A DNA stretch of 64,000 nucleotides, from positions 1-64,000 of the forward strand of contig JAAXHG010000023.1 in assembly GCA_012270995.1 (NCBI GenBank), given 5' to 3'. The stretch is from Vicinamibacteraceae bacterium. Lineage in GTDB: Bacteria; Acidobacteriota; Thermoanaerobaculia; Multivoradales; Multivoraceae. This document shows, piece after piece, positions 58,922 to 62,769 of the stretch. The notes beneath the pieces are model-generated. The model saw only the letters and a program-made list of their open reading frames with translations. It made no database searches and had not been told where the DNA came from. The first letter of the stretch is position 1, and each line of letters opens with the position of its first letter. A program made the position numbers and the translations under genes.

Positions 58922-60556
58922 CTAGGCCACAGCATCGATCAAGCGGCGCAGGCTGGCTTCGACGTCACCGTCGATATGGACAGCGAGGATCCGGCGGTCC
59001 CGTTCGACCAGCACCTCGCAGTCGCCCCATGCCTGTGCGAGCTGGACCTGGCCGAAAGTCAGGTCCTGGCCCGGCACCAGGATGTCGTCAGCCGGCGGAT
59101 CGGCGGTGAGCTGCAGGAACAGACCGCGATTCGGGCCGCCTTTGTGGGCCTGCCCGGTCGAGTGCAGGAAGCTCGGCCCGAAACCGAGCACGGACGCGCC
59201 GCCGATACGCTGGGCGAGGCCACGACGCAGGGCATCGAGCAGCTCGCGGTTGCGGTGACTGCGGTCCAGGTAGGCCGAGACGACAGCGTAGCCGCGGTCC
59301 GGAAACGTCGCGAGGTGGGTGCCCAGGAGCTGGGCCAGCCCGAGCTCGCTGACCTCGCTTAGCCGGACGACGCCGACAGGCACCTGAGCATCGCCGGCCT
59401 TCATCCGCTCGACGTAACGCCGCGTGACGACCTTGGACGATTCCACGTCCGGCTGGTCGAAGGGGTTGACGCCCAGCAGTGCGCCGGCCACCGCCGTGGC
59501 GAACTGCCAGCGGAAGAGCTCGCCGCCGAGGTCGGCGGGATCGAGTTCGATGTCGAGGCGGTCAGGCGCAGGGTCCGCCGGCAAGCCCGCCGCCGCGACC
59601 GGCAGCAGCAGCACGTCGCCCTTGCCGAGGGACTCGGCAATCAGTTGCTCGACCCAGGCGACGATCTCCGCGGATCCATCCGGCGCATGCAGGTAGAGCT
59701 TGTCGCGGCCGCAGTCGTGCGCCGCGGCGAGCAGCAGGCCCAGTTCGACACCCGGATTCGTCGCTTGCTCCTCTCCGTCGACGCGGCAAGCGTCGGCCAT
59801 CGCGCGGGCGCTCGCCAGCAGCGGCTCCGGATCGATCCCGGCGACCGCGGCCGGAGTCAGGCCGAACGCGGAGAGCACGGAGTACCGGCCGCCGACGTCA
59901 GGCTGGCCGAAGCCGACCGGGACTCGGGCAGTTCGGGCGCGCGCCTCCAACGCCGAACCCTGGTCGGTGATCGCCAGGGCGGCCCGGGGCACGGCTTCGC
60001 CCAACCGGTCGAGCATCAACTCGAACGCCAGCCGGGTTTCGAGCGTGCCGCCCGACTTCGACGCCGCGATGACCCGCAGCGCCGACGGATCGACTCCGTC
60101 CAGCGCCCTGGCGATCTCGCGAGGGTCCGTCGTGTCGAGGACGATGAACTCGGCATCGACCCGCCCCGGCACCGCCCGCCACAGCAGATCCGCGCCCAGC
60201 GCCGAGCCGCCCATGCCGAGCAGCAGGCAGCGGTCGAACGGTGGCCCGGCGAGGTGCTCGGCGAGCTTCCCGGCCTCCGTGTCGACACGCATGCCGTCGA
60301 CGTCGACGAACGTCAGGCCACTCAGGCGTTCGACATCAAGCCAGCCGAGCCACTCCTCCTCGCCCGAGTCGGTCCACAACGAGCCGTCGCCGGACCAGAG
60401 GCGGGCGGTGCCATCGAGGTCACGCCACTGTCGGCGGCGGCGCTCCAGAGCCGCCGTGAGTTCAGGGTCGAACGACGTCAGGGCTCGAAGCGCTCGGAGT
60501 AGTTCTCCGGGCCCTCCTCGCGAATGTCGCTGAGCCAGTCGCCTTCGTAGGGCCAT
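58922..60556 (-). CDS. pgi: Glucose-6-phosphate isomerase
   Basis: A cytoplasmic glycolytic enzyme, up to 544 residues, interconverting glucose- and fructose-6-phosphate. Two SIS domains with the family landmarks: LLLGMGGSALGADLLWR, then AASKSGGTLETRLAFE for phosphate binding, and a C-terminal SFLHSTGQAHKGGPNRGLF with the sugar-binding His and Lys. It matches the isomerase half of bifunctional transaldolase-Pgi proteins, but no transaldolase half is present. The true start is unsettled: the ATG at 60556 lies in the redoxin 3' end; a CTG at 60481 overlapping the redoxin stop (CTGA) is nearer the conserved sequence. Confidence 0.85.
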   Translation of the reverse strand: MALRRRLAQRHSRGGPGELLRALRALTSFDPELTAALERRRRQWRDLDGTARLWSGDGSLWTDSGEEEWLGWLDVERLSGLTFVDVDGMRVDTEAGKLAEHLAGPPFDRCLLLGMGGSALGADLLWRAVPGRVDAEFIVLDTTDPREIARALDGVDPSALRVIAASKSGGTLETRLAFELMLDRLGEAVPRAALAITDQGSALEARARTARVPVGFGQPDVGGRYSVLSAFGLTPAAVAGIDPEPLLASARAMADACRVDGEEQATNPGVELGLLLAAAHDCGRDKLYLHAPDGSAEIVAWVEQLIAESLGKGDVLLLPVAAAGLPADPAPDRLDIELDPADLGGELFRWQFATAVAGALLGVNPFDQPDVESSKVVTRRYVERMKAGDAQVPVGVVRLSEVSELGLAQLLGTHLATFPDRGYAVVSAYLDRSHRNRELLDALRRGLAQRIGGASVLGFGPSFLHSTGQAHKGGPNRGLFLQLTADPPADDILVPGQDLTFGQVQLAQAWGDCEVLVERDRRILAVHIDGDVEASLRRLIDAVA

Positions 60557-61581
60557 GCCTCGGGATCCTCTTCGCTCGGGCCCTGCCAGAAGCGCGCGAA
60601 CGAACCCTCGGCGCCACCTTCGAGCGACCAGGCCTGGCGGCGGAAGGACCAACTGTCGGGGACCAGGCGGTGCGCCTCGCGGAAGTGGCGGATCGCCGCC
60701 TCGTGGTGACCCTCGAGCTCCAGGTGTGAGGCGAGCTCGAAGTGGGCGTGCCCGAGGGACACGTCCGCGTCGCGAGGTCTCGACCGTTCAACGACTTCTT
60801 CCGGCGAAAGCGCGAATCGACTCGCCGCGCCCTTCTCCACCCAATCGCGCAGCGCCCGGTGGTAGGCGTCGGTGTCGACCGGGATCTTCGCCGCCTCCTC
60901 CAGCATCTCGCCGAAGCGCCCCGGAATCCCGGAGCTTGAGCCGAGCCTGGGCATCCCGTCGCTGGGCGGTGCCGGCGCTGCCTCCGCCGGCCGGACGATC
61001 GTGCCCGACTCGTCGATCCAGACCGAACTGGGGATGTTGATCACGCCGAAGAGCCGGGCCAGCAGGTGATGCCGGTCGACAAGGGAGGGGTGCTTCGGCT
61101 CAGCGGCCTCGATGAACCGGCCGCAGCCTTCAGCCCCCAGCGTGTCGAGACCGACCGTGACCAGTTCGAAGCCCTGAGGATGAAGCTCGTCGCGCAACGC
61201 CTGCCACCCGGGCAGGTGGGCCGAGCAGCCTCAGTAGGGCGCCCAGGCGTAGACGACGACCTTCTGCCCGCGCAGACTGGACAATCGAAACGGCTTCCCG
61301 TCCAGATCGGGCAGTTCGAAGTCGGCGTCCTCGGCCGACACCAGGGCTCGTGAGCCGATCGACTCTGGGCCCACGGCCCACACACGTTGCTCCTCGTCGT
61401 GAACGACGGGGAGACCGATGGACTCGGCAACGGCAACCGCGTCCACCTGGCTCGACGACGCCGGGGCACGGTCGAAGAGGGGCACGCACGCTGAGCCCTT
61501 GCACGCGCCCTCGGGCTTCAACTGCCAGCCCGTGCCGTCCTCGAATTCCGCTCTGGACACCTTCTTCTCTGTGAGGATCAT
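60478..61581 (-). CDS. Predicted selenoprotein: redoxin (thioredoxin-fold) with UGC active site
   Basis: A 367-residue protein if the in-frame TGA at 61231-61233 is read as selenocysteine 117. The sequence around it, KVVVYAWAPY-U-GCSAHLPGWQ, is the strand-plus-active-site start of an AhpC/TSA or TlpA-type redoxin (upstream PDLDGKPFRLSSLRGQ is the usual lead-in), with U at the peroxidatic/nucleophilic Cys position and Cys at +2. The fold continues without other stops: FELVTVGLDT, HPSLVDRHHLLARLFGVINIPSSVWIDESG with the cis-Pro. Residues about 245-340 are helical, TPR-like. The N-terminus has a CX4C pair (GACKGSAC). The ATG at 61581 begins conserved-looking sequence. It overlaps pgi downstream. 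Selenocysteine usage is inferred; a pseudogene or sequencing error is the alternative. Confidence 0.8.
61201..61233 (-). promoter_or_regulatory. Candidate bacterial SECIS element after the in-frame TGA
   Basis: Immediately 3' of the TGA on the minus strand, CCACC (61219-61215) pairs with GGTGG (61208-61204) around a 6-nt loop TGCCCG. The loop begins 17 nt after the TGA and has G at its second position (61213). CTG/CAG (61228-61226 with 61203-61201) can add a lower helix across an asymmetric bulge. This meets the known bacterial SECIS rules: short stem, small loop 16-37 nt from UGA, and G in the first two loop bases. Confidence 0.65.
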
Positions 61582-61635
61582 GCGTCGAGTGTAGCTCCGG
61601 AACAAACCCCGCCCGCGGCCTGTTAGTTTCAACCC

Positions 61636-62769
61636 ATGCCCTACTCAGCCTCACGCGGCCCGACGGAACGGCCGCGGATCGCCACCGCAGCGGGCCTGAT
61701 GGTCCTCGCCGGGCTCGCCTTCCTGCTGGCTGCCCGGTGGCAGGGAAACGTGCTCCAGGCGGACAGCCGCGGAGAGCCCAGGCCGGTAGCGCCGAGCGCC
61801 GGGCTCCTGCCCGAGGAACGCTCAACCGTCGAACTGTTCCGGCGGGCGTCGCCGTCCGTCGTCAACATCACGACCGTGACGAACCGCCGCAACCTCTTCT
61901 CTCGCCGCATCGACCGCGTTCCGGAAGGTAGCGGCACCGGCTTCATCTGGGATGCACAGGGTCACGTCGTGACCAACTTCCACGTCCTGCTCAGTGGCCA
62001 CGAGGCCGTGGTCACTCTGGACGATCAGAGCACCTGGCCGGCCAAGGTTGTGGGTCAGGATCCGCACGTCGATCTCGCCGTCCTCAAGATCGAGGCCCCG
62101 GTGGAAAAGCTGCGACCGCTGGCAGTCGGCACCTCGCGCGACCTCGAGGTAGGCCAATCCGTCCTCGCGATCGGCAATCCGTTCGGACTCGACCACACGC
62201 TGACCACGGGCGTCATCAGCGCACTCGACCGCGAAGTACCCTCGCTCACCAAACGCCTGATCCGCGGCGCAATCCAGACCGACGCGGCCATCAATCCCGG
62301 AAACTCTGGCGGGCCGCTGCTGGACTCCAGCGGACGGCTGATCGGCGTGAACACGCAGATCGTCCCGTCGGCAGCCGGCGCATGGGCAGGCATCGGATTC
62401 GCCATTCCGGTCGATACCGTGAACTGGGTCGTCCCCGAGCTCATCGCGCACGGCCAGGTCGAACGGCCCCTGATCGGTGTCGAACTGAACGATTCCCTGC
62501 TGCGTTCGCGTGGAATCCGGGGAGCGCTGATCACCAGCGTGGTGCCCGGCTCCGGTGCCGAGAGGGCCGGAATGCGGGCAAGCCGGCGCACCCGCGGCGG
62601 CATCATCCTCGGCGATCTGATCACCTCCATCGAGGGTCGATCCGTCGCAACGATCAACGACGTCCACACCATTCTGGAGAGCTATCGCGTCGGGGACGTG
62701 GTCGCCGTGACCGTTGTACGGGGCGACGGCGAAGAGGAACTGGAAGTCCGGCTCTCCTCTTCGCGCTGA
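61636..62769 (+). CDS. HtrA/DegP-type S1C serine protease with PDZ domain
   Basis: A 377-residue envelope protease/quality-control factor with one N-terminal membrane helix (about 15-34). Catalytic triad His116 (VTNFHVLL), Asp146 (DPHVDLAVLKI) and Ser224 (NPGNSGGPLLD). One PDZ domain follows (about 270-375; RGALITSVVPGSGAERAGM, GGIILGDLITSIEG). One PDZ makes it DegS-like in layout. It is divergent from the selenoprotein gene with only 54 bp between, so the two may share a regulatory region, which fits a link to envelope or oxidative stress, by inference. Confidence 0.93.
   Translation: MPYSASRGPTERPRIATAAGLMVLAGLAFLLAARWQGNVLQADSRGEPRPVAPSAGLLPEERSTVELFRRASPSVVNITTVTNRRNLFSRRIDRVPEGSGTGFIWDAQGHVVTNFHVLLSGHEAVVTLDDQSTWPAKVVGQDPHVDLAVLKIEAPVEKLRPLAVGTSRDLEVGQSVLAIGNPFGLDHTLTTGVISALDREVPSLTKRLIRGAIQTDAAINPGNSGGPLLDSSGRLIGVNTQIVPSAAGAWAGIGFAIPVDTVNWVVPELIAHGQVERPLIGVELNDSLLRSRGIRGALITSVVPGSGAERAGMRASRRTRGGIILGDLITSIEGRSVATINDVHTILESYRVGDVVAVTVVRGDGEEELEVRLSSSR

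Follow-up and report, generated by a model that had tools for sequence, protein, structure and literature searches.

A ResA/TlpA-like protein of 367 residues with a probable selenocysteine in an uncultured acidobacterial lineage

Results and discussion

The minus strand of the analysed window (the whole 64,000-nucleotide stretch of contig JAAXHG010000023.1) carries a gene for a 367-aa ResA/TlpA-like protein with one in-frame TGA, which is very probably read as selenocysteine. The whole reading is that of a selenoprotein into which SelB and tRNA-Sec would insert selenocysteine at a UGA, steered by a hairpin, and which would then work as a redox enzyme; we hold it with near certainty. It draws on the open frame, the conservation of its TGA, the exchange of Cys and Sec among homologs, the conservation of the hairpin, the machinery of the genome and the membership of a family. 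The insertion itself, the redox cycle, the cytosolic location and any role of a second cysteine pair, Cys27 and Cys32, are inferred. As a selenoprotein of an acidobacterial lineage not yet cultured, the locus is well supported. It is also one more member of a family already named by NCBI, with low novelty, and it leaves the knowledge of selenocysteine use unchanged.

A frame with a single internal TGA

The frame opens with the ATG at 61581 and, translated down to its stop codon ending at 60478, holds 367 codons, of which codon 117 (61233-61231) is the sole internal TGA. Its context is WAPY-U-GCSAHLPGW, with the motif WAPYUGC at residues 113-119.

60478..61581, minus strand: complete predicted selenoprotein gene, 367 aa plus stop, of the NF041054 WAxxUGC_long family
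61231..61233, minus strand: in-frame TGA, probable selenocysteine 117 of the W-A-P-Y-U-G-C motif
61225..61227, minus strand: Cys119 codon; this residue pairs with Sec117 and does not vary in the alignments

A sequence-only reading of this DNA had proposed a minus-strand frame with a lone TGA at 61231-61233, located at the catalytic position of a thioredoxin-fold redoxin. Both points are borne out, with a fold of the ResA/TlpA type around WAPY-U-GC. The same reading had stated that gene calling splits the frame into genes of 133 and 239 codons, and exactly these pieces were recovered: ordinary ORF calling gives one of 133 aa (61231-61632) and one of 239 aa (60478-61197). Annotation made in this way therefore needs correcting.

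Residues 86-196, which span the TGA, match the Pfam family AhpC-TSA at 8e-15. Judged by this match, by a full-length NCBIfam match and by the conservation of the frame in dozens of genomes, the read-through frame is not a product of chance. The gene closes with a final TGA (60480-60478). Several homologs and congeners carry TAA or TAG at the same place, and this final TGA is therefore the true stop.

Conservation of the TGA and cysteine homologs

The GTDB genome scan returned 38 loci. Relatives were found in 22 genomes of a 297-genome sample of the phylum, and a second sample of 396 genomes, searched with the model NF041054, had 23 positive genomes. In this second sample, the gene is present in 12 of the 14 genomes of the genus (own genome included), with one TGA in each, and is absent from the other two, G184 and G342. 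Overall identity among congeners is 88-91%. The TGA is also found in relatives at 34-69% identity from elsewhere in the Acidobacteriota, from Proteobacteria and from one Acidimicrobiales MAG; the MAGs bear the names of their deposits, among which there may be incorrect taxon labels. It is kept both in the relatives from Gammaproteobacteria, Burkholderiales, Alphaproteobacteria and the Acidimicrobiales MAG, at 54-69% identity, and in the more distant acidobacterial ones, at 35-41%.

At the active site, 49 distinct regions were compared: 47 have TGA and 2 have TGC, in a count whose motif filter let through TGA, TGC or TGT only. The unfiltered whole-protein alignment has TGA or TGC only at this position. 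The family members with TGC, thus with Cys, are L050 (a gammaproteobacterial MAG) and L070 (from another acidobacterial family). Both read WASWCGC, which agrees with the W-x-x-WCGC homologs that the sequence-only reading had mentioned. Two extra TGC rows of the whole-protein alignment correspond to a distant CPPC-type redoxin (L055) and to a spurious match on the opposite strand (L060). That reading had also named two places to look, the TGA in related genomes and the residue at position 117 in homologs. The TGA is present in 12/12 gene-bearing genomes of the genus and in distant relatives, and no residue other than Sec or Cys occurs at position 117 among the family members aligned.

These observations bear on a rival explanation, in which a Cys-encoding gene has its TGA through nonsense mutation or faulty sequencing and the locus is a decayed pseudogene or two genes. 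In its favour stand the two ORFs from ordinary gene calling. However, the identical TGA appears in independent assemblies of the 12 genus genomes and in other phyla, and the part after the TGA is conserved as well as the part before it (88-91% overall in congeners, 60-69% in Proteobacteria). Because the TGA is conserved across genomes, this explanation is refuted, and we give it practically no weight.

SECIS-like hairpin

61200..61216, minus strand: bacterial SECIS-like hairpin CCUGCC-CGGGU-GGCAGG

Counted downstream from the T of the TGA, the hairpin (CCTGCC-CGGGT-GGCAGG as DNA, 61216-61200) has its first stem base at 17 nt and its loop at 23 nt. The loop is small, contains G and lies just downstream of the UGA, as in bacterial SECIS elements. 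Across 24 distinct Sec stems, which are not 24 independent tests because the rows are related, 138 of 144 pairs form. When codons are drawn anew according to the usage of each gene, with the protein unchanged, the null expectation is 117.9 +/- 3.7 pairs, and the highest of 2000 trials reached 130. The hairpin is conserved in Sec homologs beyond what codon usage leads one to expect.

A joint change from CUG/CAG to UUG/CAA (Leu CTG and Gln CAG to TTG and CAA) is seen in three homologs, L052, L069 and L123. In the two Cys homologs only 4 of the 6 stem pairs are left, and the hairpin is disrupted. As for covariation, it lies above all slid versions and exceeds most shuffled ones, though only moderately, with 9-16 of 500 shuffles reaching the main measures of the pair counter (9 for the score). 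Taken by itself, the folding energy is what one would expect of a sequence so rich in GC (z +0.58), and when the window was scanned against Rfam with gathering thresholds, no catalogued RNA family reached its cut-off.

Selenocysteine machinery

The genome (G000) contains a tRNA-Sec with a UCA anticodon, an intact SelB of 635 aa and a SelD above the cut-off. SelA is found in two pieces flanking a run of 8 N (L017:1493-1500, G000 C189). A broken SelA in the host was considered and rejected, as the split falls at the N run and selA is intact in 28/28 other genomes tested. All of selA, selB, selC and selD, which the sequence-only reading had expected in the host, were found, selA across the N run. 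Its selenoprotein reading is upheld by the conserved TGA, the Cys of L050 and L070, the conserved SECIS-like hairpin and this machinery.

Matches to tRNA-Sec and SelA are present in 29/29 genomes tested, whether they bear the redoxin or not, so the machinery is independent of the redoxin gene. It was confirmed in G184, a congener that lacks the redoxin. Separately, SelD (G000:C87:25089-26012) sits in an open frame of 917 aa without TGA, an arrangement like that of the published Ndh-SelD fusions.

The UGA could in principle be read as another amino acid, such as Trp, or reflect a change of code. No support was found for this, and three observations speak against it: the gene's own stop is TGA where homologs use TAA or TAG, homologs without the TGA have Cys at the active-site position, and the genome has the full Sec machinery. 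We regard it as highly improbable. With selenocysteine as the preferred reading, the ribosome would insert it at the UGA of codon 117 by means of SelB and tRNA-Sec, and the hairpin just downstream would direct the insertion.

Family membership

The protein scores 494.3 bits (cut-off 300) with the NCBIfam equivalog NF041054, 'ResA-like WAxxUGC motif-containing protein', and its WAPYUGC is an instance of that motif. The alignment runs end to end, from protein 1-366 to model 1-353 of 354. The sequence-only reading was made without knowledge of this catalogued family. No feature sets the protein apart from NF041054; it has WAPY whereas more distant members have WASW. The cut-off is also passed by L035 (Gammaproteobacteria), L047 (Acidimicrobiales), the Cys form L050 and the distant acidobacterial L069, with L054 falling below it.

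A 2008 survey of GOS data described a Prx-like (UGC-containing) selenoprotein family of pfam00578, for which it counted 46 sequences with Sec and 855 homologs with Cys (PMC2398784). Later reviews list it as a UGC-containing Prx-like or TlpA disulfide reductase family (PMC9312934, PMC13188914). Our protein has in common with it a thioredoxin fold of the pfam00578 type and a UGC Sec motif. Compared by motif, fold and Pfam family only, NF041054 would be this same family, very probably first listed in 2008. The term 'WAxxUGC' is not mentioned in the literature searched, and we came across no substrate assigned to this family.

Fold and predicted function

60985..61326, minus strand: thioredoxin-fold (AhpC-TSA/ResA-like) domain, residues ~86-199
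61486..61503, minus strand: invariant N-terminal pair Cys27 and Cys32 (KPEGAC-x4-C)
60481..60921, minus strand: C-terminal all-helical region, with a TPR-like segment at residues 279-309

The AF2 model has a mean pLDDT of 89. Its best match among solved folds is ResA, with TlpA and StoA among the next ones, and the ResA alignment covers 115-125 residues at about 2 A with 21-26% identity. The thioredoxin fold is common to all of these. However, ResA, TlpA and StoA have CxxC where our protein has U-x-C, and it adds an N-terminal region that carries the invariant Cys pair, as well as a helical region at the C-terminus. The CxxC/UxxC active site of ResA and TlpA proper is not present, with one residue between U and C instead of two; by this spacing the protein is therefore ResA-like and not ResA. 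The alignments show no variation at four reactive residues, Cys27, Cys32, Sec/Cys117 and Cys119. Pro184 is conserved as well and probably corresponds to the cis-proline typical of thioredoxin folds.

Most likely, the protein is a thiol(selenol)-disulfide oxidoreductase acting through a U117-C119 selenenylsulfide. Sec117, immediately before the active-site helix (119-136), would attack the substrate, Cys119 would resolve the adduct to give the U-G-C selenenylsulfide, and a cellular reductant would recycle it. Inspection by eye shows no signal sequence at the N-terminus, and a cytosolic location is predicted.

A selenoprotein that is instead a peroxidase of the peroxiredoxin type is a less likely outcome, which we consider improbable though worth weighing. 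Its top Pfam family is AhpC-TSA, and the 2008 survey gave the UGC-motif family the name Prx-like (PMC2398784). On the other hand, the peroxiredoxin motif PxxxTxxC/U is absent, with WAPYUGCSAH in its place, the reactive pair is U-G-C, and the NCBIfam, profile and fold matches favour ResA, TlpA and StoA.

Within the oxidoreductase reading, the Cys27-x4-Cys32 pair might pass electrons to or from Sec117 and Cys119, making this long form a self-contained two-centre redox enzyme, a ResA-like selenoenzyme of the cytosol that contains its own relay. We raise this because all four residues are strictly conserved, and consider it improbable.

Genomic neighbourhood

In the genus, the gene is flanked by pgi and htrA. 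These two are direct neighbours in G184 and G342, where the matching stretches lie some 150-200 bases apart and no remnant of the selenoprotein gene is detectable (positions 60471-61598 of the window against L132 and L133). From this adjacency, the gene was therefore gained or lost as a unit. Having the gene cleanly present or absent at a single syntenic site among congeners could be of use in studying selenoprotein gain or loss. The pgi and htrA flanks are not shared outside the genus, and the neighbours there give no functional hint.

The HtrA-like protease (61636-62769), compared with L018-L030 and L044, falls into identity classes of about 65-67% or 78-100% among congeners. These classes are out of step with the identity of the selenoprotein, as in L044, where the redoxin has 98% and HtrA 66%. 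This suggests allele exchange at htrA.

Lastly, at 60473-60480, the frame of pgi (glucose-6-phosphate isomerase) follows the redoxin stop, and the region around its conserved N-terminus offers no ATG, GTG or TTG. A possible pgi start is a CTG that overlaps the TGA (CTGA) and is common to L018 and L027.
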